Below are positions 4,531 through 63,964 of a stretch of DNA of 64,000 nucleotides, one piece after another (positions within the stretch are counted from its first letter, which is position 1; each line of letters begins with the position of its first letter). The position numbers and the translations under genes are program-made. The notes below the pieces were generated by a model, which saw only the letters and a list, made by a program, of their open reading frames with translations, searched no databases and was not told where the DNA came from. The stretch is taken from contig JAPTJF010000167.1 of NCBI GenBank assembly GCA_029339195.1, positions 1-64,000 of the forward strand. The letters are read 5' to 3'. The DNA is from Micractinium sp. NFX-FRZ (lineage: Eukaryota > Chlorophyta > Trebouxiophyceae > Chlorellales > Chlorellaceae).

Positions 4531-7500
4531 GTGGAGCGGCCTCATCTACGCTCCTTACCAGCCCAGATCGAACCTGGACATCGTCAACCAGTCAATCCCA
4601 AACGACTGCCACGACCCCGCGCTCACCCCCTGGCTTCGCACCCGCTGCCACGCGTGCGCCAGCCGTCGCACGCGAGGTGGCTGCCTCGCCCTCGTCGCCG
4701 AGACATGGAACGACGGCGTGGGTGAGGCGGGCTGGGTGCTGTAGCAGGGGAGTTGCACACGCCTCGCCACGGCAGCGCCGCCGCAGCTGCTGCAAGGACA
4801 ACACTGCTGGTCACTCATGGCGGCCTGCCTGCACCAGCGTGGGCCCTTGCCAAGGCAGCACCCATTGGACAACCACGCCCAGGACTGGCCCACATTACCC
4901 CTGCCGCCCGCGCCCGCCCACCGCCTGCAGACGTGCAGAGCTGCACCTGGGTGGACAGGAGTGTGCTGGGGGAGACGACTCGGGAGTGAGTGGCAGCCTG
5001 CAGTTCCTCCAAGTGGGCATCATCACAACCTGTCGCACAACCAGCACGGTCTGCAGAGAGCGAGGCGAGGGTTTGAGCCCCGGTGGGGGCGGAGGGCAGC
5101 TGGCACCCCTGCAGCTGCGGCTGCTTGCTGATCTGGCGTGCTGCGCGTGCGCACGCTTCTTGCCTTGCAGGCTGAATTTTACGCTGGGCCTGAACCAGCC
5201 ATTTATGTTTGCCTCTAAAGTCGGTGCGCGGGGGCGGGGCCGGGCGGGGCGGGGCGGGGCCGGGCGGGGCGGGGCGGCTGGCGAGCATGCTGCAACGTGC
5301 ACAGCGGGAGCTGTGCGCCTCCTCATCTGCCTGCCGCTTGGCTGCAGCACCCCGGGTGCTCTCTTCCCCGCGCCGCATGCCCCCCTGCCCTCCGCAGCGC
5401 CTCCCCTGCACGCCCTGCCCTGCCCTGCCATGGTGCCCTCTTGCCCGCCACGCTGCCGCCCCGAGCCTCTGCCCCGCCCTGCCCCGCAGACCCCACGGTG
5501 TGCAGCGTGAGCCGGGAATATGAAGTGGATTTTGGGGAGACCTACACAGCTGCTTACTTCACGGTGAGGGGGGCACGCCCGGGGGGTTGATGACGCCCAG
5601 CTGGTGGGGCGCTGGGTCGGGGAACCGGGTACGGGGTGCAGGGGCAAGCGGCAGCAGGCCAGGGCAGTGTGCGCACAGGCTGCAGTGCTTGCCTGCAGCG
5701 TGCTGGCAGGGCCTCTGGGCCGGGGCGCAGTGCCGTTGCTTGGCAGGGGCAAGGCAGCACGGCATGGGCGGCTGCCACAGCGCGGCTCTTCGAATGCGTA
5801 GTGTGGTGTGATGGCTTTGCCCTTCCGAATGCAGCACCCAGAGCGCACGGCGTGTGCCCGCTTTGTGGCCAGAGCCGTGCAATGTGCCGTCACCACGGGA
5901 AGGTGGCCCCGCCTGCGCCGCAGGTGTATGGCAACGGCCACGGCAAGGATGGCGAGACGATGCCGCGGGGGCAGCGCCCCGACGTGAGCTGCTTCATTCG
6001 TGCCCCCCAGACCAAGTGCACCCTGCGCTTCTTCAACACGCCCGAAACCCAGTTTGCGGTCAGCAGCCGAGACGTGTGGACAAATGTGGGTGACGGTGGC
6101 TGTGCGGGGGGCGGGTGGGCGGGCTCGGGGGGCATCTGGACGTCCATTGGAGGGGCGAAGAGAAGGGGGCAATTCCGCCCAGGGCGATTTTGCAGGGCAG
6201 GGATGGGGCTGGGGCTGAGCACGACGAGCCCGTGGCGCGGCGGCTGAGCATGGCCGGCAACAGGAGGGCCGCTGGCACACTCCCGAGCTGCCTTGCTCCT
6301 TGCCCTGCTGCTCCACGCCAATCCGTGCGTGCAGGACATGGAGACTGTGCGGCGGCTGAACACGACAGGCAACGAGGAGTGCCTGGTGACTCCAGAGAGG
6401 CGGTGCATCGGTGCCGCCCGCCCCTTCCGCTACCGCATCAAACTCACTTGTGAGCCGCTGAGCTTGAAGAAAGGCAGGACAGGAGGCACTGGCAGTGTTG
6501 GCTTGCGGTCGGGGCCGGGCAATGGCGTCATTGTGGGGCAACCCGTGTCACGAAGCAGTTCCCCAGCCGTCTGCAGCTGCCTGCAGGGGGCCAGCAGGCG
6601 CCAGCATGTATCAGGCACCCGGCGTGCCATGCACAGCACATGTGTGCCTCTCCCCTCACTGCCGCCTTCTTCCTCCCTGCTCAGCACCGCTCCCATCTGC
6701 CCCATCTGCAGCGCCCCCCCTGCAAGCCGCGGCAGAACCCGCGCCCCGCCGCCTCCTGCTGTGGCACCCGCTTTGCACACCTTCGTCTGCCACTCAACCT
6801 TCACCCCACTCCACCCTCTGCAGCGCACCCCTGCAAGCCCCGGGAGAAGCCGCGCCGCACCGTCTCCTGCAGCGGCACCTTCCCCATGGCCCAGCCCGGC
6901 TACCTCCTCTACCCCGCAGCCATGCCGCTCAACTACCGCTCAGCCGGGTTCTTCCTGCAAGGTGGGTCGGCCAAGCAGCACCCAAGGGCTCTGCGTTGTG
7001 GTGCACGGGGACAGGTTGGCAGGTGGGCGCGGGCGGGCGGGCAGGCGGGCGGTGCCACTGGGAGGGCGTAGTGCCGACAGGGCTTCAAGCACAGCTGCAA
7101 CTCGGGCCCCGCCCACCCCCTCCATTCCTGCTCCTTTGCCCCGCTCTTCTGCTATTTGGTTTTCACACCCTAAACCCCAAGCCCTAAAATAACCTGCGCC
7201 CCCCACCTCCCACACACAACTGCCCCCTGCCATGCAGGCCTGTCGCGAGTGGTGTGGAGTGTGCGGCAGAAGTTCCAGCTGCTGGTGATGGTGGCCCCCG
7301 CTGACGTGGCGCTCAACATCTGCCCGCCGGGCACGCAGTGTGGGTGCCGCCAGCTGTGCATCCAGGGGGCTTTTGACTGCAACCACCAGGTTTGTTTCTG
7401 CCTCTGAAAACCATGGGACAGTGCAATAAAGTGCCGCTGCAGCCCAGCTGGGCCATTACAAAGTGCCCAAGTCCTTGACCCCCGGTGCATGCAGTCTGCG

Positions 7501-12090: not shown

Positions 12091-13990
12091 CTACCCGCCT
12101 TGTCCACCGGCATCGCTGTTGCTGCCTAGTGCTGCCACCACCAGCGGCTCGACTTGCACTGTGTCCACCGCACCACCCGTGCCAGGGCTGGCCACAGAGT
12201 ATACAAACGTCCACCCATGCGCCGCAGCGCCGTGCCGGCCGTCCTTGCTCACCGCCACCACTGCGCCAACATAGGTGGGCACACGGCGTGCCATCCTGCG
12301 CACCGCATCCTGTGCAGCCTGCGTGGGGCTCATTCCTTGGCGCATCGACTCGACCACTTGATAGCAAGGGGAGAAGGCCAGGTGGACGTCGCCGTCACAT
12401 GCAGGGCGGAGCGGGGGAGGGGGTGGGGGTGTAGAGCACCCGGGAGTGCGCATGGAGGGGCAGCTTCCCAGCAGGGGGCGGGCAGGAAGGCTGGCTGACT
12501 GGTGCGCAGGGCAGGCAGGCAGGCAGGCAGGCAGGTTGGCTGGCGGGCAGGCAGGTAGACAGGCAGGCAGGCAGGTTGGCTGGCGGGCAGGCAGGTAGGC
12601 AGGCAGGCAGGTGCAAGCGGGATGTAAAGAAGGCATGTGGCTCCACCGCCCCATGCACCCAACCCCTCACACCTCACCCTCACACCTCACCCGTGGCTCC
12701 GCACCCCCCGACCTCCGAGTCGGCATAGGCGCCGCCACCTGGCACCGAGGCGTCGCCCACCCTGCCTGGCACCTTGTGGATCGCGCCGTTCGAGCTGCTG
12801 CCCGCCGCCACGCTGCCGTCGGCGCCCACCACCACCATTGCAATCGTGTCGTGCGCCTGCTCTGTGGGCCAGCGCTGCTGCTGCTGCTGCCGCTGCTCGG
12901 GTTGCAGCCGCCGCTGCCGCTGCTGTTTTCCGGCCTGGCCCAGCTGCTGCTGCTGCAGCAGCTGGCCCTGATCAGGCTGCTTGCTGCTCCCAATGCTGCC
13001 GCCGCCATCGTGGCTGCTTGAGTTGGCAGGGAGTGGGCGGTAGGGGCCACAGGACTGCAGCGGATCTGGCCTGACCCGCCGCCGGAAGTTGGGCTGGCAG
13101 CGGCCCGCCTGCCTGCAGGCGGCGAGCAGTGCGCGGCAACGGGCACGCTGTGAAAGAGCAAACCTGAGGCAAGCAGAGGCGGCGCCTGCGGGAGGGGCAG
13201 GGCATGCAGGCCAACCGCGCCGTCCAGCATGCCGCCTGCCCAGCACTGCAGTGCATTCTTCCACTTTCCAAGAGTCCCAGATTCGCCTGCATAGAGTGCA
13301 TGTGTTGCAGCGCTGCAAGCAGCGCCCGCCCCTCACCAGCGGCGGTGCATTTCCCGGCTCTCCTCCGTGGCCAGGCTGCCCTCCTGCAGCCCCATTTCCA
13401 CGGCAAACGCCGTGGCCTGGTCCCCGGCAAGCATGGTGTGGGTGGAGCGCTCCAACACGAGGCGAGCAGCGGTGGTCGCCTGGCGCACGCGTCGCAAGTT
13501 GCTGACCGCTCCCGCCCTCATTGTATTGCCATCCATGACCAGCGCGTCAAGCGTGGTCTCGCCCGACTCATCAGGGCTGCCGCCGAAGCCTACTGTACGG
13601 TCGCACTGCAACTCCTCGGCGGTTGTGCAGCCCTGCGAAGAGGGGTGGGCGACGGCGGCGGCGGCGGCGGAGCGCTCTGAGGTGGCGGCGTGCTGTGGTG
13701 GGTGCACAAGCCGCCTGCCTACCGGCGGATCCTCGACATCGGAACGTGCTTGCCTGCTCAACAGCGTCTAGTGCGCTGCCGCCTGCCTCTTGGACCGCCC
13801 ACGCGGCAGCTGTAGCCTCGCTGAAATTTGCGGCCCAAGTGTTCACGACAATCGGCAGTGCAGCGCGGGCGTGATCAGGACCCTCATTGAAGATTGTGGC
13901 GTCTAGTGAGGCGGCCTGGTGCCGGGTCAGAGCCGCAGCCACCAGCAGCGGCAGCCCCAGGACAGGAGCCAGCACGCGGAAGACGCCCAT
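12091..13990 (-). CDS. AGA: N4-(beta-N-acetylglucosaminyl)-L-asparaginase (glycosylasparaginase)
   Basis: Ntn-hydrolase that cleaves the GlcNAc-Asn bond of N-glycoproteins in the vacuole/lysosome, after self-cleavage before a catalytic Thr. Exons: 13990-13754, 13632-13337, 13112-12691, about 12398-12091 (TAG); about 420 residues. A hydrophobic N-terminus ([15 protein letters not shown]) is a likely signal peptide. Family blocks seen: [46 protein letters not shown], then HDTIAMVVV with the nucleophile Thr at about residue 267 and [17 protein letters not shown] Gln-rich insertion of about 40 residues sits just before the cleavage site. Intron 1 uses a GC donor (CAG|GCAAGC). Intron 3 lacks any AG acceptor near the conserved GDVHLAF block, so the start of exon 4 is set by homology. 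Confidence 0.88.
12500..12612. repeat. (AGGC)n/(TGCC)n microsatellite
   Basis: Two long tracts of GGCAGGCAGGC units, separated by TTGGCTGGCG interruptions, lie in intron 3 of the glycosylasparaginase gene. The interruption itself repeats, so the tract is a compound array. Confidence 0.85.
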
Positions 13991-14185: not shown

Positions 14186-17100
14186 TCAGGGTTGGGCCAG
14201 CAGCCAGTTGGCTGCCCGCTCCACATTGCCGCTCGTCACCCGCAGCGCGCGCTCCGCCTGCTGCCCCGTGAAGCCTAACGATGTGAGGGTCTCTACCGAG
14301 GCAGGGTCCAAGCCATTGCTTGCCGAGCGCTTTACCCCAGCTACTGCAGCAGCAGCAGTGCCTCCTGCGTCGCCATCGCTGCCGCCGTTCACTCGGCTCG
14401 AGCCACGCAGCACCGCTGTCCCCGCTGCTCCCAGCTCCCCTGCCCCTGTTGCTGCTGCTGCTGCTACGGTGGCTGAAGGGAAGGCATCCCTGCTGTCGTC
14501 TGCTGCTAGGTCCACCACGGCAGCTGGCGCTGAGGCAGCCTTGTGCTGCAGCCCCCCAGGCGGCCCCGGCTGCTGCGGCCGCCGGCTGAAGGCCGCTGCG
14601 ATGCCGCCGCCGGCAGGCTTGCCGCCCGCTGCTGCCGCCGCCTGCCGCTTGGCGGCGGTGCCAGCTGGCACCTCGGAGGCGGCACGCTTCATGCCAGCGC
14701 CCCCGCCAGCCCCAGCGCTGCTGCCGCCGCCGTCTGCTGCTGTTGCTGGGCCCTTGGGTCTGAAGAAATCTGTGATGCTCTTGGGAGCCTGGAACGCCTT
14801 TTTCAGGCACTTTGGGTCCACTGGGGTGGGCGGCTCTGCGCGCACAGGGAGGGGTGGCAGGCAGGGTGAGCGCGCGCTGGGAGGCGGGCAGCAGGACGGC
14901 AACAGGCCATGGGGGGCACGGTTGCCACAGCGGGCGCACACCGCCCCGTGTGCTGCGCCGTGCTCCCATCAGGAGCCCAAGTCTGGAGGGCAGGGGGCAT
15001 GCAGAGGGGGCTGCGTCGGTGCCCGCCTGCGCCCCACCCACCTGTGCGCCTCTGCAGCGGCACAGCCACGGCGCCGGTCGTGCCCTCCTGCTGCTGCTGC
15101 AGGCTCAGCACTGCCACCACCTCTGGCAGCAGGTGGCCCGGGTAGCGCACACCTGCGCAGGCGGGCAGAGGAGGGGCAGCTAGGGGCGGCTGTTGGCATG
15201 GAGTGGTAGAGCAGACCCCAATCTGGCCCCACCCAGCACATCGACACCTCTGAAGCACGTGCCGCCCCACGTCCAATGCACGAATAATCGCCCCAACACC
15301 CGGTCCCACCCTGCACCCCTCACTTGTCCGCCCCACACCCCACCCACCAATGCTTGGCATGCTTCCGTCCGCCGCGCCCACCAATGTCGGCCCCACACAG
15401 CACAGCACTATCCACCGATGGGCGGCAGGTCGCCGTCCCCAAAGCCTCCCATTCCGCCCTCAGGCCACCCAACCAGAAGCCACCCCGCCCACCAATGAGC
15501 GGCAGGCTGCCGTCTCCCAGCTCCACCCTCACGATGCGCAGGGAGCGGTCGCCCTTGGACAGCTCCATCTCGTGGCGCGCCAGCACGCGCTCCAGGCTGC
15601 AGAGGGAGGCAGCAGGGAACCCAGAGGAGGTGTAGTGAGGAAGGGGTTTGAGGGGGCGAAACAGAGCAGGGGCACCGTGCCAGCGCGCGCCAGGCTGCAG
15701 AGGGGTGCAGGCAGGGAATGCACGGGTGTCCTGATGAGGCAGAGGAGCGAGCAGGAGTGCACACACGCGCCACAGTGCAAAGCAGGGAGAACAGGGGGGA
15801 GGGTAGGGAGGAGGGGCGGTGGGACGGCAAGCAAGAGGGAACCGGGGTGAATGCACGCAAGGGGACGCAGCGGCAGCTGCAGCAGTGCCTCGATACCCAG
15901 GGTGTACAACCCCTCCCCCTCCCTGCCTCAACAACCAAGGCAGAGGGCTTCTCAGACAGCAGCGCGCACCAGTCCCAGATGCGCACGACGCTGCCGCTGA
16001 GGATCGTCACACCCGTCAGGCGGCGCCCCACCTGCATGTCCGGTCCGAAACATCAAGCATACATGCACATCACTCAGGTGTCACCAAAGGGTGGAGTTAA
16101 AGCCAGGGTCGGGCTGCATCGCTGTGCAGCCGCATTGCCAGGGGCACTGCAGCGCGCCGCCTGGGCAGACTAGCAAAGCCTGGTCTCCCGGCCCACCTGG
16201 CAGGCGGCGCCCTGCTGGCAGTGGTCGCCGTGCATGCATGCCTGCAGGGAGGCGTCGTACTGGTCCTCCCACCCCTCCTTCGCCTCCTCCTCTGCGCGGG
16301 GTGCAGCCAGACAGGGGCAGGTGAGGCGAGGACAGGCTGGTGGGACACGGTGCAGCAACGACAGCAGGCGGGGCAGAAGTGTGGACTGCCTGCCCCTGCC
16401 GCATGCGTGCTGAGCTCTCTGTTGTGGCAGTGCACGCAGCGCGCCCTTCCAATACGCGTGCCAGCCCAGCTGCCCCGCTTGATTGGAGACAGCATACCAA
16501 GCATGGCCGGCGCCTGCCCGCCCCCAGGTGGGCGCATGCTTGAGACAGTGTGTGCATTCCCACAAGCGCCTCACCTGAGACGGGCACATACTTCTGGTGC
16601 AGTTCGTCGATGTCCATGTCAAAGAAGGAGGGGCCTGCACCACAGGTACGTGCAGTGAGGCAAGTTGTGAGGTACGGCGGGGCAGCAGGGCAGGCGGGGC
16701 GGGCGCTGCCGGCAGGCAGTGAGGGCAAGAGCTGCACTCACTGCCAGCTGCTTGCTTCAGCTGCGCTAGCCACAGCCACGGCTGCATTGGGCAGGCAGCC
16801 TCCAGCACTGCACAGCGCGTGTCACGCCGCACCATCTAAACATGCACCAGTGCTCCCCAGCATGTGGGAGCACCCCTGGCCCTGCCTCCTCCCCGCCTCA
16901 GCCCCTTGTTTACCACCCTCACCCGTGTTGGGGCGGCAGATGGAGAACAGGTTGTGGGCCCCCGGCTTCTGAATGGCCAGCAGGTACACGGTGCGCCCAA
17001 ACATGGGGCGGCGGGAGGCGCGGAAGCCGCTGCGGTCGCCGGGGCCTGCAGGCGGGCAGCAGGAGGCGGGGGCATGGGTGAGGCTGTGGGCAGCGGCAGC

Positions 17101-20100
17101 AGTGCGGCGGCACAGCGGCATCAGGGCGGAGCGCGCGCAGCAGGGTGCCTGCCTGCCTGCCTGCCCATGCTTGGCCCGAGCACGCCCTGCCTGACCACCT
17201 GCCCAATCTGCCAGCACACATCCAAACGTAGGTTTGCAAACACGCCTGCTTTGCCCAGTTCTCCGGTTCTGGCTCGCTCACCCGCGCGCTCGTGCGCCAG
17301 GCGGGCGCTGGCCGCCTCGAACGACATCCCCCGGTCAATGGTGAGGTCGTGCCGCAGCGTGGCCAGCCCAGTCAGCGGGTCAACCCACAGCTCCTGTTTA
17401 GGCAGAAAGACAGGGGCAGTACGAGTATATATGTTTTACCAATACAGGCAGGAAGGCAGGCCGGCCAGTCAAAGGACCCAACCACAGCTCCTACACAGCA
17501 GGCAGGAAAGGCAGTACACTGGGAAGGCAGTACACCACCCTAACAGCGCTGCCCCTCCGGAGGTCACTTGCCTCTGCCTCGCCGTCCCTCGCGATGTTCT
17601 GCCCCGGCAGGTCGCTCACACCCTCAAAGTACTTGCCCTCCGCACGGGCCGCCCGAATCTCTGCCTGCATCACCGCCTGCAGGGGGGGCAGAAAGGGGCG
17701 GAAAACTACTCTTGAGCTTCCATTCCTGCCTGTGCAAGCATCCCCATATTCATGCCAGCCGCCATCCCCTCCCAGTCCATAGACCCCCTCCTTACCGAGA
17801 AGTAGTTGAACAGCAGGTTCTGGCGAGCCACCGGCAGGCCCAGCAGGCGGTTGAGGAAGCGCCTGCAGGGCAGGGGGGGCAGCAGCAACGGCGCGCAGTG
17901 AGGGTGCAGGGCAGCGGGTGCTCGTCAGGCCCCTGGCGCTGCTGCCCCTGTGCCATCCCCTCCCCATGGCATGATGCACGCACACACATGCACAAGCGGC
18001 CCAAAAGCAGACGGCTTGATGCGCATGATTGACCAACCAGGCGCTTTTCACAGCCCCACCCACAGGCACCTCACGCCTCTGCCGCTGGCTGCCCCCCTGC
18101 GCTGCTCTCCGCCCACCCCAGCACAGCGCACACGCTCTCATGCACACTTGCCAACACCCACCCCAGCGCACCTCACGTCCCCAACATCCTTGCCGCTGGC
18201 TGCTGCCGCGCTGCTGTCCTCAGCCACGGTGTCCCCCCGGGGTAGGCCCAGCCCAATGCCCATCATGTCCACACTGCCCCGCAGCCTCTCATGCAGCAGC
18301 TGTATGCCCTGCACCATCTGCGCCGCCGTGGTGCGCCCGTCGGCTGCGGGGATGGGGGCACGGAAAGAGGCGAAGAGGTGGGGTGAGGCAGGGGTGGACG
18401 GCTTCCCATGCTGCAGCTGGCTGCCCTGCACCACGTGTGCTGTAGTGGTGCTGCTGTCGGCTGCTCAGAGGAGCAGAACAGGGCCACTTGCCTGCCTCCA
18501 GGCAAGTCTCACTATGTGAGGCCGTGGCCCTGGGCACCAGGAACCACCTCCTTGGGCTGGCTTAAACCAAGCAACGCCTATCCTCCTTCTAGTAACCAGC
18601 CCATCCCTGCCCCCACCCACCCACCTCCCGGCATGGGGTACCACCCCCGCAGCTCCTCCTCTGGCATGCCGTCCACCAGCTGCGCCAGGCGCACCCCCTG
18701 GGGCAGCAGGGGGGAGCCCAGAACAATGAAGTCGTACCTGCACGGGAGAGCATGGGGTGGACAAAGGAGCACAGATGCAGAGGATTGGGGGCCGGTGCTT
18801 GGGGAACCCAAGTCAAGTACTGTATTGAGGCAGGCGGAGGGAGTTGGGGAAGCCCAGCACTACTGGAGGGGTTATGCCTGCATGCGGGGCGGCGACGCGA
18901 GTGAATGACGGGAGTGACAGACAGGAGAGATGAAGCCTGGGCCCAGCCCTCACTCAAACCCATGCTGGCCTCAGCCGCACCCACCCAAGTGCCCCCCCGC
19001 CCCGCTCACATCTTGCGCAGCGACTTGCGGCCCAGAGGGGAGTCGAAGTTGAGCTCGGAGAGGTCCAGGCCGCTGGCGGCGCGGCGGTCGCCACGCGTCA
19101 GCGCACCCAGAGACTGCAGGCGGCGGGCCACCGAGGCGGCAAAGCGCCGCTCGCCACCTGTGGCGGCGTGGATGAGGGAGGGGCGGGGGAGGGGTGAGTG
19201 GAGTGGTAGAGACAAAAGAAAAGCAAGGCAGGCACGGCAACGGATGGACACGGGCAGGCTGCCTGACAGGCAGGCATTCCGGGGAGACAGGTAGGCATCA
19301 GCAGACAAGAAGAGGGGCAGGCAGGGAGCATCGCCACAGCAGCTGTTGTAGAAAGGCAGGCAGCGCAGCAGGCGGACAGGCAGGCAGACTCACCCACAGA
19401 GGTGAAGACCAGTTTGTAGAGGGGGGCGGACAGCTGGTTGGAGCGGTGGGAGCGGCCGAGCTGCTGGATGGCCTTGTCCGCTGCAACGGGGCGGGGACAG
19501 GCTTTCATAATATGAGGAACACGTGGAAGAGGGGATGGCCTTGTCGGCTGTAAGGGGGAGGCAAACGTGTTGCAACATGATAAAGATGAAAGAGCCAGAG
19601 AAGTTGCACGGCCTAGTGAGGCCCAGCTGCTAGACAGTCGTGCCGGCTGCTGGGCGGGGGCGGGGGCAGCACGGCGGTGCAGTGAGGGACGCAAGACGTG
19701 CGCGGTAGCGGCCTCAGGCACTCAGGCCCATTGGCTGCTCCTGCATTTCGCCTGCACTGCATATAACTGAGCTACAGCCCCCGCTCCCACCACCCCCATC
19801 TGACCCTACCACCCACCAGACGCACACACTCCCTCGGGCCGCCAAGGCCAGCCCTATCACCCGACCAGGGCAGTTCAATGGTCAGATGCATGCGCCGCCA
19901 CAAGTCTGGCCCCACAACCCATCACTACGGAGTGGCCTCACCCGACCAGGGCAGCTCGATGGTGAGGTGCATGCGCCGCCGCTGGTTCCTGGCCACCTTG
20001 GAGGCGTGCAGGCTGATGCCGGTGGAGGCGGCATCGCTCACAATGGCCACCAGCTTCTTGCCCTGCAGGGGGGGCAAACCGACGCGGATCAGTGTACATA

Positions 20101-23100
20101 CACGGAATGTGGGAGCTGGCAGCGTGATCCCGGTCAGTTCACAAATAATGTAGGGAGCAGGGGCGCGTGGGATGAGGCTCGTAGAGGCATCCCTCAGATG
20201 CCGACCAGCTCTTGCCGAGCGACAGCAGAGTAGAGGTAGTGCAGTGTGAGAGCAGAGGCACGCGAGCTCATTGCCCGTGGAGGCGGCAGGCCACCCACTG
20301 CTTGCCCTGACGGTGTGCAGGATGAGAGGCCCTGTGGACCGGGTTTGGGTGCACTCACACATCCCTCATCCCCCACCCACCCAATTACGCCACCTGGTCT
20401 CAACTCCTCCCCCCTGGCCTAACCAACACACGAATCAAATCGAAGCCTGTCACATCCATGAAAGCCCGGCCTGTCCTTGAGGTTCAAGCTGTCCATTCCA
20501 CCACACCCGGACGCACACACCAGTCGCACACGCCCCCACACTCACATCCGCACATCCACGAATGCCTGCTTCTCCTTGATGTTCAAGCTGTCCATCTTGC
20601 TGGACTCTGGGCTTCCCGCAGCCAGCTTCCAACACAACGGCTCCCTAAACACCATCACACTGCAACCACTCACATCCATGAAAGCCTGCTTCTCCTTGAT
20701 GTTCAGGCTGTCCATCTCGCTGGAGTCGGGCTTGGCACGCAGGCTGTACACGCCACGCCCCCGATCGTCACGCACCTGCGGGCGGGGCGGGGCGGGCAGG
20801 GCCGCGGTCATGGCGTCGCGCTGGCCCAGGCGGGCAGGGCCACAGTTTGAGTCATTGTGGTGGACAGGGCGGGCAGGACCATGGTACAGGCAGCGTGGTG
20901 GGCAATTAATATGGGCAGGTAGTTACTGTCATAAGAGGGCTGTCCTTGTTGCCAAATCAGCTGTGCTGCTCAGGTGAGCTGCGGGCCTCTCCTGCAGCAG
21001 CTGCTGCCGCCAGCCTGAGAGCCGCAGCCAGGGGAGCAATACAGAGCCCCGCCACGTGTGACTCACGATGCGTGCCTTGCGCCCCGTCATCTCCGCCACC
21101 TTGGAGGGGCCGCCCAGCCGGTCCACCAGCTGCAGAGGGGGTAGGAGAGGGAGGGGTAAGCAAGGGACAGGAGAGGAAGGGGGCAGGGGTGGAAACCAGC
21201 GCAGTTGGGGGATGTAGGTGGGCATCGGTCTGGACGCTGTGCCACCATGTCCTACTTGCCCCTTATAGCCCGCTTGCCTGCCAGGTTGGCAGCTCCACAT
21301 TCCCTCTGCCATGGACTTCTCTAAACGTCCCTTCACAGTGCATCCAGGAATTTGAAACGCAGCATTGGTCTGGGCCCACACCCCAGGCACGCCCTCCCTT
21401 GCTCCTCACCTCATCCAGGAAGTTGGGGGGCAGGTCCAGGGCCGCAATGCGCTCCAGCATGCTGCACACATGCACAAGAGGAGAAGCAGCATGTGACAGG
21501 CGGGGAAGCAGGAAGGCATGGGTGCAAGGAAGGTCGGTGGCTGCGCTGCCAACGCCTCAGCCCAGCCAACCCCTATCAAGTCCACCACAGCCATGCCCAG
21601 GCCCGGACCCGGCGAGGCTGCCCACCCACTCACCTGCCCTTGAGCTGCACGCTGGTCGGGTCCTCCTCCCCCTGCTGCTGCCCCTGCTGCTGCCCCTGCT
21701 GCTGCCCTGCCGCTCCAGACTCCTGCCCTGCCGCCCACGTCGACTCGCTGCCATCCCCTCCGCCGCCGCCAGCCTGCCACTCCTCCCCCGCCGCCTCTGC
21801 CGCTGCCGCTGCATTGTGATCCTCCAGCGCTCTCGTGGTGGGAAAGTGCGTCTCCACAAACTGGAGCAGCAGCTGGCGGGTGGTGGACACAAAGCCGCAG
21901 CGGTCGCCCGGCTGCAGGCCCAGAGAGTCGGCTGCTGCCTCGCCCGTGCTCTGCAGGCCGATGACCACTGCAGGGTGAGGCGGGGTGGGGTGGGGTGGGG
22001 TGGGGCTGTGTGGGAAGGAGGCAAGCGGGGTGCTGGCGGGGGAGGTGGGAATGAGCGGCATAGGTGTGGTTCATGGGGCTGTTCATGCAGGAGGCAACCC
22101 GGCTGCTTTGCCCCCCGCTTTTCTTCCGAAAACCCGCTGGCAGCCTTGCCACTGGGAACTGTGCGCATTCACCTGCCCCACAGCTTGTCCACCTTCCCTC
22201 CTCACACACCCTCATAACCCACCCACCTGTGCATCCCGCATGCAGCGCCGCCGCCGCTGCCTTCGCCGCCGCTCCACCCTTTGTGCAGCCTCTCCCCCCA
22301 CCCAAGCTCTTTAAGAGCACCCTCAACATCACCTCAGCCTTGAGACCACGCACCCGCAAACCCTTCCTCCAGTGCCGCCGCCGCATCCTTCACCACCGCC
22401 CCGACCTTCATGGAAACGCACAACAGCTTGAAGAAGCGCTGCTGGGCTGCCCAGAAGGGCTTCCACACATCGGCCTTCACGCCCGTGGCTGTGGGCCGGG
22501 AGGCAGGCAGGCAGGCAGGCAGAGAAGGGGCGTGAGAGCAGGTGCGTGGGGGCACAGGTGGAGTAGCTGTGCAGGCAGGCTGGCAGGCAGGCAGGCACGC
22601 AACACTTGCTGCAGCGACCAGCCCACTGCAGGGATGCCGCTGTGCGGCCCTGCACTCAGCAAGCAGGCAGGCGCCCTGGCCCAACCCTGCCCATCGTATC
22701 CCACACCCCATTTTCTTGCTCCCCTGCGCCTCCACCGACACGCTGCGGTTACCGCCACATCCATGCCACGGCCCGCGCAGGGCCCCGTTCCTCTCCCTCT
22801 GACACTCTGAATCATGCATTTTATTTTTGGTGTAGAACCGGCAGTTTGATTTGAATGTGGGTCTGATTCCGTCCTCACCTGCCTGCGCCTCCACCAGCGC
22901 GTTCCGGAGGTCCTGCCAGAGCAGCGCCGCCGCGTCGTAGGCCGCCACCTGTGCGCTGCTCAGCCGGCACTCCATCTCGGAGAACTCGGCCTCCCTGCAC
23001 AGAAACAGCACAGCACAGCACAGCACAGCATGGTACGGCACGGCACGGCACGGTGATGAGAAGTGGCAGGGAAGCTGCCCAACCCTCCAGCTCAGAAAAT

Positions 23101-26020: not shown

Positions 26021-26861
26021 GCCTCGGTGCTGACCGGCCCTGCAGTTAGACGATGGAATAACCGGCATGGCAAGGTGTAGAGTTTGGATTGTATTCATTA
26101 TGAGCTGGCTGGTGTGATGCAACAAGGTGGGAGGAAGCCGAGGCAACGGAGTGCCATGTGACTGCAAGGGCGACAGCACCGGTTGCAGGCAGCGGCGGCA
26201 GGCGCCCCTCACAGGCGGCTGCTGCTGCCCTTGACTAGGATGATCTGATGTTCTGTGATTCGCCGACTAGTGTCTGTAGTGCGCCAAGGGACCGCACGCA
26301 GCCCGACTAGGGCCTCACGCCTTGCTCGACAAGAGCACTGCTGCCAGCGCCCTACCTGATGCGTCTCAGCACTTCCAGGGACCCTCCACCACGCGATAGG
26401 TGATTGCACAGCCGATGAGACGCCCCGCCAGAGGTTGCCGAACTTTGGAACTCGCGCTCTCAGCTTCACAGGCTGCGACAAGTGATCCCGGCAGCTATGA
26501 GGTGGCTCACGAGCCAATGGTGTCTGCGAATCTGCCTGCGAAGCTATCAGGTCCCGCACTCAAGCGCCGCCGCCGCCAGCGCCGCCTTGCTTGGCGGCAG
26601 CATGCAGAGCGGCCGACATGAGAGCTGTGCAAGCGGAACCCACTGTTGCTTTACATGGAATTAATAATTCATTGGAAGTAATAATCTCCGACAGTCAAAC
26701 TAAACGGTGCTCATAAAAGCGGCCAGCTAGCGCGCCGCATCTGCCCGCTGGTCACACGAGCGGTGCTCCGGTGCGTACAGTCGCACAGCAATCCGCTCAA
26801 GATCCTCCGAAAAAGGTGCATGCGCTGCCAAAAGCAGAAGAGAAGCACAGGTCAGCCCCGC
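26021..26861. other. SBNO promoter region and GEX1 3' flank
   Basis: An 840-bp gap between tandem minus-strand genes. It holds the SBNO 5' region (a possible 5'-UTR intron acceptor, CTAACTGCAG on the minus strand, lies near 26040) and the GEX1 3' UTR. A distinctly AT-rich patch occurs at 26650-26700. I see no coding sequence. Confidence 0.6.
26651..26655 (-). terminator. TGTAA polyadenylation signal (GEX1)
   Basis: TTACA on the + strand, 207 nt past the GEX1 stop and inside the AT-rich patch, is a good chlorophyte poly(A) word in the right orientation. Confidence 0.65.
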
Positions 26862-29800: not shown

Positions 29801-30748
29801 CGCGTGCGTAGCCCGCCCCCTCAGCCAGCCGGTTCAGCATGTTCTCCGTGTACTTCTCGAAGTTCTGGTTCTGGATGAACAGGCACATGCTGCACCAGAA
29901 GGCACGAGGCAGCATTAGGGCCAAAAAAAAGTGCGGGCACAGGGGCGGGCTGAGAAGAGGGCAGCACGGCTAGCTTGCCAGACAGTTCCTGTTTATGACG
30001 GATCCCACCTGTCAGCGTGCGTCAAGAACTCCACAAAGAGGGAGTGGGCTCGATCTGACAGTGCATCAGTGCACTCCTTGAGGCTCTGCCGGCGGTGGCA
30101 GGGGTAGGTGGAGCTGCCCTGCGTCGCCAGCTGGCAGTTCATGAGCCTGCAGGGGGCACATAGGCAGTGTGAAATGCGCAAGCCTCCCCCATAAGAGATA
30201 TCAAGCTGCGCACCTTCTGTGGACATTTCATTGGCTTTCGGCAATCAGCAAACACTTGCCGCTAGCGCTGCACTCGCCCACAGGAGCCTCTCTCACCGCA
30301 GCGCCAGGCGCGTCTTGTCCTCCTGCTCCATGCGCCGGCAGTCGGCGGTGAGCTCGCCCACCGCTTGCGAGAAGCAGTTGGTGCCGAACACTCGGTCCAG
30401 GAAGCCCTCATCACTGGCCTGCTCCTCCAGCCTCTCCATCCGACCTGCGACCAACACACAGGGTGGCGGGTGGCAAGAGCGGGTCCAGCTGGGGTGCCTC
30501 CTTGTCTGGTGGAAGCGCAATGGCTGTCTGCACAGTCCTCCCAACAGAGTGCATGTTTGATGCAGCTAGCACACCATAGCCAGGCATCACCGTGGCGCAC
30601 CTTTGCCCTCCCGCACATGGCTGGCGGGGACAACGGCAAAGCGGGGTGCTGGGGGAGCCGAGAAGCCCCACGCCGTGGCGCCGCTCACTGCAGCTGCGAG
30701 CAGCAGCAGCAGCTGTACCAACAGGGCTGACTGCTGAGTGCGAGGCAT
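26862..30748 (-). CDS. GEX1: Nuclear-fusion (karyogamy) protein, KAR5/Brambleberry/GEX1 family
   Basis: Nuclear-envelope protein needed for gamete nuclear fusion in yeast, plants and Chlamydomonas. 732 residues; exons 30748-30601, 30444-30297, 30146-30009, 29889-29685, 29462-29370, 29166-28908, 28634-28528, 28322-28221, 28040-27838, 27657-26862 (TAA); all phases close. Seen: a signal peptide (ALLVQLLLLLAAAVSG), a cysteine-bearing N-terminal domain with LKECTDALSDRAHSLFVEFL and CLFIQNQNFEKYTENML, a long coiled coil (about 150-330), three or four hydrophobic segments (about 335-460), then a charged Ala/Pro/Arg tail with GKRTRR and PKRARRS. This layout is diagnostic for the family. Intron 7 has a GC donor (AGG|GCGAGT). 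The gene is divergent from INCENP. Confidence 0.87.
28828..28858. repeat. Copy of the 3' edge of GEX1 exon 29166-28908
   Basis: TGAGCGCTGCTGGTAGCC occurs both here and at the true exon end (28914-28931), 82 bases apart, and the flanks diverge. The copy lies in the following intron. Confidence 0.8.
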
Positions 30749-46922: not shown

Positions 46923-56366
<9,444 letters not shown>

Positions 56367-57763
56367 GTCGCACGCTGGTGCGTCCGCGCCCTGCGTCGCG
56401 CCTGAACCAGCCGCATGGGCACCTGCACCACCCGGCATCACCTGAATGTCCACTGATAGCAGCCAATGGGCTGCGCCCCGGGGGGGGGCTGCATGCCCTC
56501 CCCCAGCCGCCCTCCCCCCTGCAAATTTTCAGACGCAGAACGAATGAACTGATGTATTGCGCCTGCTGTTGTGTTCATGCCTTGCCCCTGCCTACGTGGC
56601 ACGCCCGTCTGCCCCAGCGGGGCCAGGCCGTGTAGTGTTGTGCCGGCGCGGACTTGTGACCTGCGCCGGGCACCCCTTTTTCCAATCTCTTGCCCCCTGC
56701 TATTTCGCCAGACACCTCGCTCACGATCCTGTTTCCCTCCCAGAGGCCTGGCTGCCTTGACGCCCCCGTTTTGATCCAGCGCAGTCTTGCCTCCCTATCC
56801 CTCTTCTGATCCCATGCCCCCTACACTCCCTCCCGCACTCCCTCTGCCAGAGTACACAGTCACCCACCGCTGCGGCCTCCTCTAGTACCCCACCCTGCCC
56901 CTGCGCCATTTTGAACAGCCCTGGGTGCGTGCATGCCCCGAAACAGACGCTTGTGGGCTGCCCTCCTCAACAGCTGAACTCGATCCCCCCGGTTCCTTTC
57001 AATCCCCCCATTGATTGACTCTTCCTGTCTTCCCTCTGGGCCACCCTTCTTTCTCCCTGTCGCTTTCTTCGCCACTGCACCCTCACACCCTGCACCAGCC
57101 ACCACATCACATCACATCTCATGGGAGGCCACACCCACCCCCTCCCCTGCACCTGCGCATCCCCAAAGCAACAAACCCTCAGGCCTGTTGAAAACTGCCC
57201 CCTGCCCGGCACCCCAACCGAACCCATGCCCCTTCTCATCCCACTTTACCCATGCATGCATGCATCCATCCTCCTAGATCAGCATCCTACCCCCCCTTTG
57301 ATTTTGACCTGAATCGCACCTCGCACCGTGCCTGCCTGTGCACTGTGTGCCCCTCGGCCCCAGCACGTCTCGGCCTCGGTCTTAGCGGATACATCGCCCC
57401 AGCAGTGGAACCACCCTCATTTCCCTTACTGTTACATACCAGGCTTAAGCTTTACACGCAAGGAAGTCGCGGAATGGTGGTGGGTTGGGGTGTTGCACAC
57501 GTGGCAGCGGGCAACGTCAGAGCGCAGCAGGAAGTCAGGAGAGCAGGGCAGGACGAACAGAGCGGAGCACAGCGAGAGGGGCGGTGGCGCCAGCAGCTGC
57601 CGGGACGTGGGTCGAAAGGGAGACACAGGGCGGGCTCTCACGTTTGTGGTCAGAGGCAAACCACCGCCAGAGCTGCTAGCTATTTATTTAGGGACAGTCA
57701 TGAGGGAGGGAGGAGGGGCTGTAGCACGGGGGCTGCTCTGGGGCGACCCAGACAGTGCAGAGC
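56367..57763. other. Long convergent 3' region
   Basis: 1.4 kb between the LOV-kinase stop (+) and the LYR-gene stop (-). The sequence is C/T-rich with many CCTCCC words and a CATGCATGCATG tract near 57250. Open frames have no protein character. No TGTAA for the kinase is visible; one for the LYR gene is at 57432. Confidence 0.6.
57432..57436 (-). terminator. TGTAA polyadenylation signal (LYR gene)
   Basis: TTACA on the + strand, 328 nt past the LYR-gene stop, in the right orientation. Confidence 0.5.
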
Positions 57764-58673
57764 TCAAAAAGAGGAGGGGTTGTAGCGCGGCGGCTCCCGC
57801 CCGAAAAACTGCCGCTTGAGCAGCTGCTGGTGCCGCTGCCGCGCCTCATCCATGCCGATGGTGCCGTCGGCCACGCTGCAGGGGGGCAGGGTGGGTGGCG
57901 GAGGGGGGGCAGGGAGCGTGTGGGTGGGCTTGAAACATGGACAGCTGGTTGTGCTGCTGCACCCCTCACAAATGCTGATGGTGCTGTCGGCCATGCTGCA
58001 ATGATCAAGGGGCGTGGGAGAGTGTGAGCAGGGATACGTGCGCAGGCAAGCAATGCCAATGATGGGAAGATGGCGATGAAACGTATGCGCCTCATCCATG
58101 CTTATGGTACCGTCTGCCACGCTGAGCAAGGACAGTGCAGCATTGAAAAAGGGGGGGGGGGGGCGCGAAGGCAGGTGCAGGGAGAAACAAGGGTGTGGGC
58201 AGGCAGGTAGGCGGGGGATGTGGCAAGCCTCGTAGTGCTGGCTGGATGTTATGTAGACAAACATTTGCACCTTGACCATGCAAGTAAGGTGCAGCAAGAT
58301 CCAGCCAGCATATTCATGTCATCCAGCCCGCCCGGCCCGCTCCTGCCGTGCTCCACCCCGCTCACCGTGTGCCGGTGGTCTCGCCGCTGCCCTCCACCAG
58401 CTTGCCGTCTCGCAGCACGTAGTGCCCCGCGCCGATCGATGAAACCTCCCCAGGATGCCGGGGCGTCATGACACGCAGGAAGCTGATTTTTGCGGCCAGT
58501 TGCTTGAAGAGGTCCTGCTGCCGCGCTACGTCCGCCTCCCCGGCGTGCTGTCGCATTGTTTGCCGCGCCTCCGACCAAGCTGAGCCGCGCTGCGCTTCGG
58601 GCAGCCGCTTGATGAGGGAGAGCAGCTCTTTGTAGGCTCTTATGACCTGAGTGCGGTGCTGGCTGGGCCCCAT
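57764..58673 (-). CDS. LYR-motif (Complex1_LYR-like) small protein, probably mitochondrial assembly factor
   Basis: 139 residues from two exons: 58673-58366 and 57875-57764 (TGA), joined in phase as GTR-VADG. The start QVIRAYKELLSLIKRLPEAQR has the helix and spacing of LYR proteins, with the tripeptide degenerated to AYK, and the rest is a small charged helical protein ending KRQFFGREPPRYNPSSF. LYR proteins act with acyl carrier protein or Fe-S carriers in assembling respiratory complexes. The segment ISFLRVMTPR followed by a basic tail suggests, weakly, the MZM1/LYRM7 group (complex III). Two extra decayed copies of the start of exon 2 lie in the intron, so the acceptor at 57875 is the third of three similar sites. 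Confidence 0.68.
57965..58126. repeat. Two intronic copies of the LYR-gene exon 2 start
   Basis: Copies at about 57965-58000 and 58087-58126 repeat the exon edge at 57840-57878. They encode MADSTISI and SVADGTISMDEA against the real SVADGTIGMDEA. The outer copy keeps an AG acceptor (TTGCTCAG) and an intact frame for several codons. Confidence 0.85.
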
Positions 58674-58841: not shown

Positions 58842-58846
58842 TTACA
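58842..58846 (-). terminator. TGTAA polyadenylation signal (NOL/NYC1-like gene)
   Basis: TTACA on the + strand lies 103 nt past the reductase stop and upstream of the LYR start codon, so it fits the end of the reductase transcript. Confidence 0.65.
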
Positions 58847-58948
58847 GTCGGGGCATCCGTGCGTAGCACTGTGCAAACATAAAACGTGAGCGGCTGCAGC
58901 GGCATGAGCATGAACACATCCTCCCTGTCGGTGAACGCAATTCACGCC

Positions 58949-61759
58949 TCATTGTGCACCGCCAGCGGCGGGCGCCAGCGGCGAGTAGCCGCCGGCCGCA
59001 CGCGAGCCTTCTGGCACAAACCGCCCCCGCCTCTTGGCAGCAGTAGCAAACCGCCAGGCCACGCCGCTCATGGTCAGGTAGCGGATGTACTCCCCATTGC
59101 CCGTCACGCCTCTGCAGGTGGGCGCCCAGGGCGAGGGTGGGGGTGCGCGGGAAGGGTGGGAAGGCACGCACGGTAGCCGCACGTGGCAGCAGGGATCAAG
59201 GCAGCTGCGAGGGGAAGAGAAAGTTTAGTAGACAGTGCAGCGCAGCAGGCAGCAGGTGCCGGCGGGTGACTGCAGCGGCAGTCGGCAGGCAGCAGCAAGT
59301 GTAGCGACGCTGCCGGGCGCCCCGCAACGCAGCAGCGTCCCATGCCAGGTGGGCGCACCTCATGCGCGGCACCAGCCAGGCTGCCACGCTGGCAGGCTCC
59401 TCCGCCAGGATGTTGATCATGCGGGCTGCCGGTGGGAAGGGTGTGTTGAAGTTCTATGTCATCAAGGAGTTTCAGGTGGCAGGCGAATGATGATGCCGGC
59501 AGGAGGCAGGGCAGGCGGGCGGCAGGGCGCATGCAAGATGTCAAGTCACGCAGGCTGCTGGACAGACAGGGCGCAGGCGGGGGCCAAGCAGGCGGTGGGC
59601 CAGCAGGCCAGGAGCGGGTGTCGGGCCCAATCAGGAGGAGCGGTGCCAACGTGCGAACACTGTCACTCTCCAGCAGCCCGGGCCTGCCCTCCTTTCCATC
59701 CCATCCCGGCCCAGCCCAGCCACCCGGTCCTAACCTGACCTGAGCGCGGGTTGTCTGCATAGCGTGTGAGGAGATCTGTGGCCACCATCCCGGGGCTCAC
59801 TATGTGCACCCCTACAGCGCTGCCCTTCACCTCCGCCGCCAGGCTGTCCTTCAGCTGCACCAGCGCGCGCTTGGTGGCGCCGTACGCGGCGTTCCCAGGC
59901 GTGGGGTTGCCCCAGCTGCGGCAGAGGGTGCGAGCAAATGGTGGGGGCAAGAGGAAGGGTGGGCACCATGGCGCGCTTGTGGGCACACAAGCAGCGTTTC
60001 CTGGCGTAGGAGGTGCCCCGGCTGTAGGGTGGGCAACAGGAAGCGGGTGGCAATGTGCGGAGAGGCTTTCCTCACCGCCATGCTTCCACTTCGCGGCGAC
60101 TTCACACACAGGGTTGTGAGCTGCTTGTCTGCAGCTCAGCTGGCCCACGCTTGTCAGCTTAGCCGGCAGCAGCAGCACGCCGCCCCTTGCCTGCCTGCCT
60201 GCCTGCCTGCCCCGCTGCCTGCCTGCCTGCCTGCCTGCCGCACCTCCCGTTTCCGTCCACGAGGAACAGCTTGCCCCCAGTGGGCTGCGTCATCATGCGG
60301 CACAGGGCGGCGCGGGCGCTCAGCAGCGCGCCTGCGGGTGGGCCGGCAGGCGGGTGGTGGAGGAAGGCAGAGGTGGGCTGGAGGTGGAGGCGCTGCCGCA
60401 ATGCACAGCAGCAAGGCCAGCAGGGACCCGCAGCTCCCGCGGACCGAGGCAATGCAGTCAGCCGCCAGAAGCGTGCGTCATTGTGGCAGCCAGCGGCGGC
60501 ATCCCAGCTGTGGCAAGCGGCGCAGCAGACACACCCAGGCCCTGCATGCCTGCCCCACCCAAGCCTTGAGCCTGTAAACAAACGTGTGTGGCAAGGAAAC
60601 TGCTCGCAGTATTTGAATCACATCACTTTTCCCGCCTCACCCGTCAGGTTTGTGTCCACAATTGCAGTGAGCTCCGAGGTGGGGGTGGAGGCCACCGGCG
60701 CCTTGCGCTGCACAGGCAAAGAGGGGCCAGCCGTTGTAGCTACCGCCGTGCCGGGCCGCACAGCTGGCAGGTGCACGGAGTGCGTGGGGGGTCTCTCACC
60801 CGCCGGTCCCCACTCGCCTGCACCAACAGTGCCGCGCTGCACGCCCTTGTCGCATGTAGTTTTGCCCTCAGCTCTTCAAAAGTTGCCCTCTGCCCCACTT
60901 GACGCGCACCTGGTCACCCACCCCAAACACATGTGCGCTCACCTGCGCTGACAGCCCTGCATTGCACACCCAGATGTCGATCTGCCCCAGCTCCTGGTGC
61001 GCCCGCGCGGCCAGCGCCTCCACGTCAGCGGGCTTGGACACGTCAGCAGCCACGCCCACCACCAGCGAGCCGGGGAACTCCTGCAGTAAAAGGCACAGTA
61101 AAAGGCAGGGGACACTACAAGTGAGGACACGCCATACCGTGTGAGCATGCATGCGAGCAGCGAGCTGCACTTGTGGCTGCCGCCAGGGTGCCGGGGAGCT
61201 GCCCATGTGCAGGAAGGAGCGGCAAGCAACCAGCCGTGCCACGTCAGCACTGAGAAGCAGAGGCAAGGTTGCGTCTGCGCATTCAGCGCAGGCTAGACGG
61301 GATGGAAGGACACAAGCGTCGGCGGGAACAGGCAGGTAAGGCAAGGTGCAGGGCGGCGCCCACGGACCTCGCGCAGCCGCTGGAGGCAGTCCTCCACCGC
61401 TGCCGCCGAGCGGCTGCTGATCACCACATCGTCTCCCAGGGCCAGGAATTGGCGGGCCAGGTGCAGGCCCAGCCCACGCGTGCTGCCGGTGATGACGACC
61501 TGCACTGGCGGGCATAGAGGAGCGGAGACAAGGTGGCGAGCGGTGGAGGCAGCGGCGGGCGGCGGACAGGGCGGCGCCGGTGGAGCTGGCGAAGGCGGCG
61601 GAGGGCATGCACCTTAAAGCCTTGAGGGTGTGGTGTGTCATCCACGCGCGCCGTTGCGGCCGCGAGGGCCGACTTGGTGAGTTTGTGTCCCGCCCAGAGC
61701 AGCACGGGGGTGACAAGGCCGGCGATGAACCCACGCCATTCCCAGTCCCCTGAAGACAT
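58949..61759 (-). CDS. Short-chain dehydrogenase, chlorophyll b reductase-like (NOL/NYC1)
   Basis: NADPH-dependent reductase of the group that converts chlorophyll b to 7-hydroxymethyl chlorophyll a in plastids. 325 residues; exons 61759-61613, 61499-61368, 61080-60943, 60707-60641, 60331-60244, 59915-59740, 59425-59359, 59111-58949 (TGA); all phases close. Seen: an N-terminal hydrophobic helix (FIAGLVTPVLLWAG), VVITGSTRGLGLHLA (Rossmann TGxxxGxG), ISSRS, DVSKPADV, IDIWVCNAG, GKLFLVDGNG, catalytic YGATK (Tyr-xxx-Lys), VHIVSPGMVATDLL, then NILAEEPASVAAWLVPRMR and EYIRYLT, which are specific to NOL/NYC1 rather than general SDRs. No long transit peptide is obvious. The enzyme identity is by similarity; other SDR substrates are possible. 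Confidence 0.85.
59962..60026. repeat. Decayed copy of the 5' half of reductase exon 59915-59740
   Basis: On the minus strand the copy reads GGGGCACCTCCTACGCCAGG followed by AACGC and CACAAGCGCGC, parallel to the real exon edge (59855-59920: GGGGCAACCCCACGCCTGGG, AACGC, CACCAAGCGCGC). It lies in the preceding intron. Confidence 0.8.
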
Positions 61760-62845: not shown

Positions 62846-63964
62846 TCATTGTGAACCGTAGCCACTGCTGCTGCCCCCACCAGGCCGATAGGCACTGTCG
62901 CTGCTGCCGCTACTGCCGTATGCGGGCTGATCACCAGGCGGCGGCCCCTGCCCCTCCCACTGCCACTGCTGTTGCTGCTGCTGCTGCCACTGCTGCTGCG
63001 AGTCCACGGCTTCTTGTGCCTCACGCTCCACCTGGAAAGGAGCAGCAAGCCAGCGCAGCCATGAGGTGCAGCACAGCAAGGGCACCTAGGATTGCTGAAA
63101 GTCCAGCTTCGGCGCAACCAGCTGGGGCCAAGACAGAACTAGGCGCCTCCCTCGTGTGCAGCGTGCGGGCGCACGTTGCAGCACCTACCGTGCCCATCAC
63201 ACACGCGCCACGCCCGACGCCAACCACGCACCTCCACCCATGCACTGAACCCTCTAATCCCGAACCCAACATGACGCCAACCCCACAACCAGGCATCACT
63301 GCCCCACACCACCACAGCCGCGCCTCGCCCCCTTCCCCATTCTTCCCAAACCCTCCTTCACCTGCAGGGACACCTCCCCTGCCCTGCCCCACCTGCAGGG
63401 ACACCTCCCCTGCCCTGCCCCACCTGCAGGGACACCTCCCCTGCCCTGCCCCACCTGCAGCGACACCTCCAGGAACTGCGTGCGGTCCGCATGCGGGTAC
63501 TCGCTCACCCACAGCCCGCTGTTCAGCAGGTACACATCCTGGACGGCCTGCCGGCGGGGAGCAGTGACCAGGAGGAGGGCGGGCAGGGCGGAGATCGTGG
63601 GTTGAGGCCGCAGCAGCAGGCGGGCGCAGGGTGGGCAAGGCGGCCGGGCGAGCTCCCGCTCGCGGGCATGTGCCGTCATGCAGGCCGGAGGCAGGCAGGC
63701 ATGCAGCAGGCTGGCTGCAAAGGTTCCAAGCTTCGACCAACGCCAAGCAAGCATGCACAGCAGCCCCACCACCCCGCCTTTTGAAACGCCGGGAGTGGGC
63801 GGGGCGGGGCACCACCTGCCCACCCAGGGACGCACGATGTCGACACGCCGCTGCAACGCTCAGCACCCCCAGCCCAGCCCGCGCCCACCTTGAATTTCTG
63901 GAAGGTGGTGTCGGCGCTCAGCACCACCAGCTCAGCGGGCTCTCCAGGCTGGATCAGCTCATAG
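62846..63964 (-). CDS. Unidentified protein, 3' part (gene continues beyond the right edge)
   Basis: I do not recognise this family. Three exons are placed: 63964-63889, 63547-63455 and 63031-62846, with agreeing phases and a TGA at 62846-62848. The visible protein is about 118 residues: YELIQPGEPAELVVLSAD, then DVYLLNSGLWVSEYPHA, then EREAQEAVDS and a C-terminal Gln/Gly/Ser/Tyr-rich tail. The first two blocks look conserved and soluble; the tail is low complexity. The first visible exon starts in phase 2, so upstream exons lie outside the window. The donor at 63454 is followed by tandem copies of the junction. Confidence 0.65.
63360..63452. repeat. Three 31-bp tandem copies of an exon-intron junction
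   Basis: Three nearly identical 31-bp units built on ACCTGCAGGGACACCTCCCC follow the true donor of exon 63547-63455. Each includes the last bases of the exon (GGTGTCCCTGCAG on the minus strand) and the GTGGGG donor, giving four consecutive equivalent 5' splice sites. Confidence 0.9.

Follow-up and report, generated by a model that had tools for sequence, protein, structure and literature searches.

Introns of the green alga Micractinium sp. NFX-FRZ carry decayed same-direction copies of neighbouring exon edges

The first 64,000 nucleotides of contig JAPTJF010000167.1 of the green alga Micractinium sp. NFX-FRZ (forward strand; the window) contain a Cys-rich gene, SBNO, GEX1, a formamidase gene, a LOV kinase gene, a LYR-like gene, a NOL/NYC1-like region and a last gene near the right-hand end. 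In each of these eight, an intron had been predicted from the letters of the window to hold imperfect copies of the adjacent exon end. We confirm that introns of this genome contain decayed, same-direction copies of the edges of their neighbouring exons: about 1 in 10 of the introns analysed (43 of 437) matches its own flanking exon. The cases in the window are described below, followed by their frequency against controls, their anatomy and the processes that may have produced them.

Results

The window has a GC content of 66% and lies on contig C167 of the 66.07-Mb, 838-contig assembly GCA_029339195.1. To obtain exon models we wrote a hidden Markov gene finder that reads both strands and trained it on the window together with a further 200 kb of this genome. 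The donors that it learned resemble GTGAGG and the acceptors TGCAG, and it returned 437 introns in 63 multi-exon genes (median lengths 250 nt for introns and 121 nt for internal exons). Each intron was aligned to its own flanking exon ends (up to 150 nt) with low complexity masked, and a match is one of at least 24 bits unless another threshold is given; 10 of 73 listed items, weak seeds below 24 bits among them, are excluded from the 24-bit counts. Controls were the exons of other genes (4370 pairings), the reversed intron (437) and distant exons of the same gene. Since the thresholds were chosen after the first 264 kb had been viewed, a later 40-kb sample, for which gene model and threshold were frozen beforehand, is the sole independent check. 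For most of its length the SBNO model is in line with the proteins of nine relatives, and it has a few extra stretches, so that single predicted exon borders may be wrong. Among the best 120 of 1429 matches listed, the SBNO protein is 73% identical to that of Micractinium tetrahymenae, 67% to that of Chlorella vulgaris, 74% (over 81% of the query) to that of Chlorella ohadii and 75% to another protein, which places the genome among the Chlorellaceae.

The Cys-rich gene, on the plus strand, has matches in 2 of 11 introns. Intron 5 contains a copy (6237–6270) of the following exon (6349–6383; 83% identity, offset 112) and intron 6 a copy (6692–6768) of the acceptor and exon start at 6804–6879 (81%, offset 112). 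The formamidase gene, also on the plus strand, has a match in 1 of 11 introns: intron 3 repeats the exon end 37864–37943 at 38079–38159 (77%, offset 215). On the same strand, 2 of the 19 introns of the LOV kinase gene match. Intron 3 carries a copy (48730–48786) of the exon end 48580–48636 (70%, offset 150), and intron 18 a copy (56011–56053) of the acceptor and exon start 56118–56160 (79%, offset 107). By eye, the translation of the latter gene (46923–57448) resembles a hybrid PAS/LOV histidine kinase that includes a receiver domain, and not a phototropin.

SBNO, on the minus strand, has matches in 6 of 29 introns, and in 10 of 29 when the threshold is lowered to at least 20 bits. Acceptors with the exon start are repeated in intron 1 (25464–25536, matching 25347–25419; 72%, offset 117), in intron 18 (18401–18464, matching 18284–18347; 78%, offset 117) and, weakly, in intron 21 (17465–17517, matching 17368–17422; 67%, seed 20.9 bits). 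Exon ends with the donor are repeated in intron 10 (22219–22287, matching 22346–22414; 70%, offset 127) and, weakly, in intron 28 (15412–15442, matching 15489–15519; 81%, offset 77, seed 20.6 bits), and intron 19 holds a copy (18080–18110) of the exon end 18191–18219 (84%, offset 109). Two introns carry copies on both sides. In intron 15, the exon end and donor 19938–19994 recur at 19857–19911 (84%, offset 81–83) and the acceptor region 19466–19531 recurs at 19533–19594 (70%, seed 20.2 bits). In intron 14, the exon start 20015–20062 is copied at 20171–20216 (73%), while the exon end 20671–20730 is followed by an in-frame copy at 20551–20610 (90%) and a second copy at 20451–20496. The in-frame copy is open and keeps its donor, and the gene finder read it (window 20551–20673) as a coding insertion of 40 residues. 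This segment is missing from the aligned proteins of nine relatives, and C. ohadii has a different short insertion at that place; the copy is a candidate for an exon extension.

GEX1 adjoins SBNO on the minus strand, the two occupying 14186–30439 of the window. One of its eight introns has a match, a perfect copy of 19/19 nt (intron 5; 28834–28852, from the exon end 28914–28932; offset 80). In C. vulgaris, the first part of protein P0003 (2017 aa) looks by eye like GEX1 and the sequence continues as SBNO; the GEX1-SBNO neighbourhood thus seems to be conserved in C. vulgaris and annotated there as one gene.

The remaining genes of the eight also lie on the minus strand. The only intron of the LYR-like gene contains three copies, including 57938–58034 and 58087–58124, of the acceptor and exon start 57817–57915; the predicted protein (57764–58673) has no Pfam match at E≤0.001, so the LYR-like name rests solely on the reading by eye in the original prediction. 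In the last gene, 1 of 2 introns matches (intron 1, copy 63857–63878 of the exon end 63915–63936; 91%, offset 58), and intron 2 contains a 31-bp tandem array (63344–63470) across the exon end and donor, which scored 21.1 bits in the intron test and is a minisatellite, different in kind from the other cases. Seven of the eight genes thus show the predicted copies. The exception is the NOL/NYC1-like region (58.9–61.8 kb), where none of the 8 introns has a match and there is only a weak 62-nt, 63% match of 59963–60024 to the exon edge 59857–59918; the gene finder called part of the copy exonic. Five further genes of the window have no intron match even at 20 bits or more. The predicted copy size of roughly 25–90 bases is consistent with the 19–99 nt of the matches in the window.

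Own flanking exons were matched in 43/437 introns, exons of other genes in 11/4370 pairings (0.25%) and reversed introns in 0/437, so matches are far rarer in shuffled pairs than between true neighbours and the copies have a single orientation. Distant exons of the same gene were matched in 1.06% of cases, above the rate for other genes. At a threshold of at least 20 bits the rates are 15.1% for own exons, 2.9% for other genes and 3.2% for reversed introns. In the window alone, 14 of 124 introns match. The hold-out sample gave 6/63 for own exons, 2/630 for other genes and 0/63 for reversed introns. Together with the presence of copies in 26 of the 63 genes of the main set, it bears out the claim that the pattern is local, same-strand and present genome-wide in unrelated genes. 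A scan of the window that used no annotation found 26 local direct repeats of at least 24 bits, compared with 1 and 2 at distant offsets; it also returned 18 inverted and 25 reversed local matches, though these came from a search space three times as large as that of the direct repeats. Over 264 kb, such a scan found 164 local direct repeats compared with 15 at a distant offset.

The 43 introns contain 47 matches of 19–111 nt with 65–100% identity, 22 to the upstream and 25 to the downstream exon. Three have offsets above 260, and two of these lie in one gene of L005 that has internal coding repeats; these two are thus not exon-edge copies in the original sense. Annotation-free pairs with offsets of 40–260 comprise 61 exon-intron, 41 intron-intron, 13 exon-exon, 4 intergenic and 4 exon-intergenic pairs, and at 90% identity or more 9, 6, 2, 1 and 0, respectively. 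Offsets of the exon-intron pairs peak at 80–120 nt (34/61), and homology covers at least 80% of the offset in 5 of the 61, 50–80% in 20 and less in 36. The copies keep away from junctions: the distance to the nearest one has a 10th percentile of 40 nt and a median of 68 nt (n=56), and in 39 of the 44 matches with offsets up to 260 the intronic copy lies at least 40 nt from the true splice site. None of the six hold-out copies is within 40 nt of a junction, and five include the copied junction. Across all sequences, the splice site is carried along, as predicted, in 37 of 53 extended matches.

The intronic copies decay mainly as non-coding DNA. Gaps are 1 nt long in 24 of 38 cases. Copied splice sites retain GT in 8/16 and AG in 14/21, by our reckoning near the level that about 80% identity leaves, which fits non-coding decay. 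Mismatches at the three codon positions number 126/743, 133/733 and 161/739 (17.0, 18.1 and 21.8%; 53 matches; p=0.047); coding constraint of the kind a duplicated coding exon would show is not seen, and a small third-position excess remains. A preference for offsets that are multiples of three was considered and rejected: in 28 of the 47 matches the offset is the same at start and end, and the remainders among these 28 are distributed 9, 10 and 9. Median intron length is 341 nt with a copy and 240 nt without one, in keeping with the suggestion that copies account for part of intron length.

Other repeats were observed beside this set. By eye, an array in L019 (1–450) consists of some five decayed copies of a single exon end and donor, spaced ∼70–110 nt apart. 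A clean case of ordinary tandem duplication, ∼158 bp head to tail inside an intron, is found in L018 (7800–8140; joined sequence s7, 17800–18140). Arrays of a 4-bp repeat of the GGCA/TGCC type lie at 1680–1825, 12477–12611 and 60188–60239 of the window.

Discussion

The explanation that we consider best, and hold tentatively at a little under even confidence, is short templated local insertion with survivors filtered by splicing. A stretch of ∼30–100 nt would be copied in the same orientation to a site usually 80–200 nt away, most likely during error-prone repair or replication, when the growing strand falls back, copies a neighbouring stretch a second time and then rejoins. Selection would remove copies that break coding sequence, and those in introns would be spliced out and survive. 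Because protein constraint preserves the exon template and only the intronic copy decays, copies of exon edges would stay recognisable longest. A second filter would remove copies near a true splice site, leaving survivors mostly at least 40 nt away. Several results argue for this reading over tandem duplication, namely the spaced layout, the poor fit of tandem simulations and the lengths of the introns. The excess of repeats at offsets of 40–260 is local and non-tandem, as in repair-mediated proximal duplication, with homology covering less than 80% of the offset in 56 of the 61 exon-intron pairs. Subtracting the copy from the intron leaves 278 nt, which fits the opportunity-weighted expectation of 275 (247–304), whereas subtracting the full offset leaves 224 nt, outside it; this would be consistent with introns growing by the copy alone.

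A number of points weigh against templated insertion. The opportunity model is an assumption, and the plain copy-free median of 240 nt is closer to 224 than to 278. Head-to-tail units occur among the young cases, with a 111-bp unit in L007/L008 and a 66-bp unit in L011/L012. Homology past the splice site exceeds the 95% level of the controls in 6/16 cases on the donor side and 4/19 on the acceptor side; this is a prediction of tandem duplication, and part of the set may therefore be tandem with a decayed intronic half. Copies include a junction more often than random placement would give (44/56 compared with about 22). The branch point and pyrimidine tract account for an exclusion zone on the 3′ side; for the scarcity of copies less than 40 nt from donors, splicing offers no clear reason. 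The set comes from one genome, within which copy and template are indistinguishable, and the unit sizes and uniform breakpoints of the simulations were our choice.

Tandem duplication is the main rival or a second source, and as the general explanation we regard it as possible, though clearly less probable than templated insertion. A unit of 60–200 bp would be duplicated across the exon-intron border, as from fill-in at a staggered break, and faster decay of its intronic half would give the spaced look. The single orientation (43/437 direct, 0/437 reversed) and the ∼100 nt of extra length in introns with copies agree with this, as do the head-to-tail cases and the flank homology (10/35 in all). 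Among 19 pairs hand-picked for high identity or a tandem look, 12 reach p≤0.035 on one side or both, and 8 of these 12 have one copy labelled exonic. Tandem duplication as sole cause was our first idea, against which simulation and coverage argued. When tandem duplication was simulated together with neutral decay and the products were re-annotated by the same finder, coverage was near full at 82% identity or more (n=182), whereas the observed median is 0.28 (n=17). Simulated copies lie within 40 nt of the splice site in 193/333 cases (140/333 at 40 nt or more) compared with 5/44 observed, and simulated offsets fall below 80 in 132/331 compared with 2/44, a figure that depends on the chosen unit sizes. 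The tandem model thus requires much faster loss of the intronic half. Adjacent copies that span the whole offset occur in single cases, 80% being reached in 5/61 exon-intron pairs compared with 19/41 intron-intron pairs, and head-to-tail arrays of the minisatellite type account for 63344–63470 and some other arrays, not for most exon-intron pairs.

The original prediction proposed duplication of junctions as such, and the data uphold the part of it that concerns short, local, direct duplication and decay across the genome; targeting of junctions is not established, and intron-intron copies occur. A directed process, coupled for example to transcription or splicing, that copies exon edges with their splice sites seems unlikely to us. 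The excess of junctions within exon-bearing copies (44 of the 56 non-tandem pairs compared with 22.2) persists when at least 8 nt (30 compared with 17.2) or 12 nt (24 compared with 14.1) of intron are required. Exon-intron pairs are seldom tandem and seldom have offsets below 80 (4/61 compared with 20/41 for intron-intron pairs; p=1.5e-6), and five of the six hold-out copies include the junction. Under a null that keeps copies at least 30 nt from junctions, however, the excess shrinks to 42/53 compared with 28.4, to 28 compared with 22.1 at 8 nt or more and to 22 compared with 18.6 at 12 nt or more, so that part of it goes with the exclusion zone round splice sites; for ungapped cores the values are 19 compared with 17.3 and 14 compared with 13.5. 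Much of the remaining excess consists of copies that reach just 1–7 nt into the intron, and much of it may reflect the exclusion zone together with the splice-site consensus shared at the end of the alignment. The donor side (22) hardly differs from the acceptor side (25). At random positions, intron-intron pairs would be about as frequent as exon-intron pairs (0.33 and 0.31), and a frozen exon should, by our reasoning, about double the visibility of a copy; the class counts do not require targeting. It is doubtful that a recurrent process specifically places exon edges and splice sites in the adjacent intron ∼100 nt off, possibly coupled to transcription or splicing, with introns steadily gaining decoy sites and growing as a result.

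That the copies are functional, as alternative exons, alternative splice sites or decoys under selection, is improbable. Some retain an open frame and splice site, one example being the in-frame SBNO copy of 120 nt at 20551–20610; in the SBNO copy at 19857–19911, four differences in a 43-nt core beside the donor look synonymous by eye, and third codon positions differ slightly more than the others. The last excess is small and could be produced by the exon copy alone, and the single-nucleotide gaps, the frequent loss of copied GT and AG and offsets without bias to multiples of three all run counter to selection for function. As raw material for new splice sites, as originally suggested, the copies are plausible, given the GT and AG dinucleotides that some of them keep. 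That the copies are artefacts, whether of assembly, of low complexity or of gene prediction, is hardly credible, for although the introns are GC-rich and repeat-rich, some predicted exons are wrong and the window scan also gives inverted and reversed matches, the control rate on the same introns is 0.25%, copies of 65–100% identity cannot all stem from assembly, and both the annotation-free scans and the hold-out sample agree with the finding.

Two further candidates were rejected. In intron gain of the Rogers type, intron ends copy the opposite exons, whereas the listed copies of upstream exons follow the 5′ splice site and those of downstream exons precede the 3′ site. An introner or other mobile element would place the same sequence at many unrelated sites, and exons of other genes were matched in only 11/4370 pairings. 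A search of the 66 Mb with one 60-nt query listed only its two local places, a lower bound, as a weaker third local copy went unlisted and decayed distant copies could likewise escape.

No earlier account of the pattern is present among the literature titles and abstract openings listed. Blanc et al. reportedly commented in 2010 on repeats in introns of the Chlorella NC64A genome. The passages on introns, repeats and tandem duplication in the genome papers of C. vulgaris (PMC6972661) and Auxenochlorella (PMC12636532) do not describe it. The original prediction knew of no name for the pattern, but related processes have been described (PMC2671141, PMC4974935). According to Pace et al. 2009 (PMC2671141), repair-mediated duplication in vertebrates captures proximal DNA, including introns and now and then exons. 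Those duplications are likewise short and local, non-tandem by selection of the set, often intronic and subject to later decay, and a few donors contain an exon or partial exon. They differ in having a median length of 147 bp, a mean separation of ∼1.2 kb, one inverted exon copy and breakpoint marks seen against relatives; the algal copies are mostly 30–100 nt, are offset by ∼100 nt, include no reversed case among 437 introns and are known from one genome. In the potato RdRp gene (PMC4974935), a tandem genomic duplication over an intron-exon border created a new intron. It resembles the algal copies as a direct duplication carrying acceptor, tract and exon start, but is a single head-to-tail case from which an intron arose, whereas the algal copies are many and mostly spaced inside an old one. 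In mammalian cells, CST and Pol alpha-primase give rise to small tandem duplications by filling in breaks that have 3′ overhangs (PMC8355091). These duplications share the direct orientation and short range; their copies are adjacent, and most algal copies are not. Work cited in the review PMC3443670 likewise derives changes of gene structure from short internal duplications but, as cited there, concerns the creation of introns by duplication and not decayed exon edges in existing introns. The algal set is set apart from these processes by its frequency within genes, offset near 100 nt, single orientation and spacing.

If about one in ten introns carries a readable exon-edge copy, short local duplication would be a steady source of intron length in this lineage, and would steadily supply ready-made donor and acceptor sites. 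With one copy pinned by protein constraint, each pair could serve as a clock for small duplications, and their rate, their size and their resolution by splicing would be measurable from a single genome. There is also a warning for annotation in that gene finders can take such copies for exons, as happened here in SBNO. The pattern is a trace of short local DNA duplications hidden by splicing; it is akin to duplication processes already known, but is frequent and has a regular layout.

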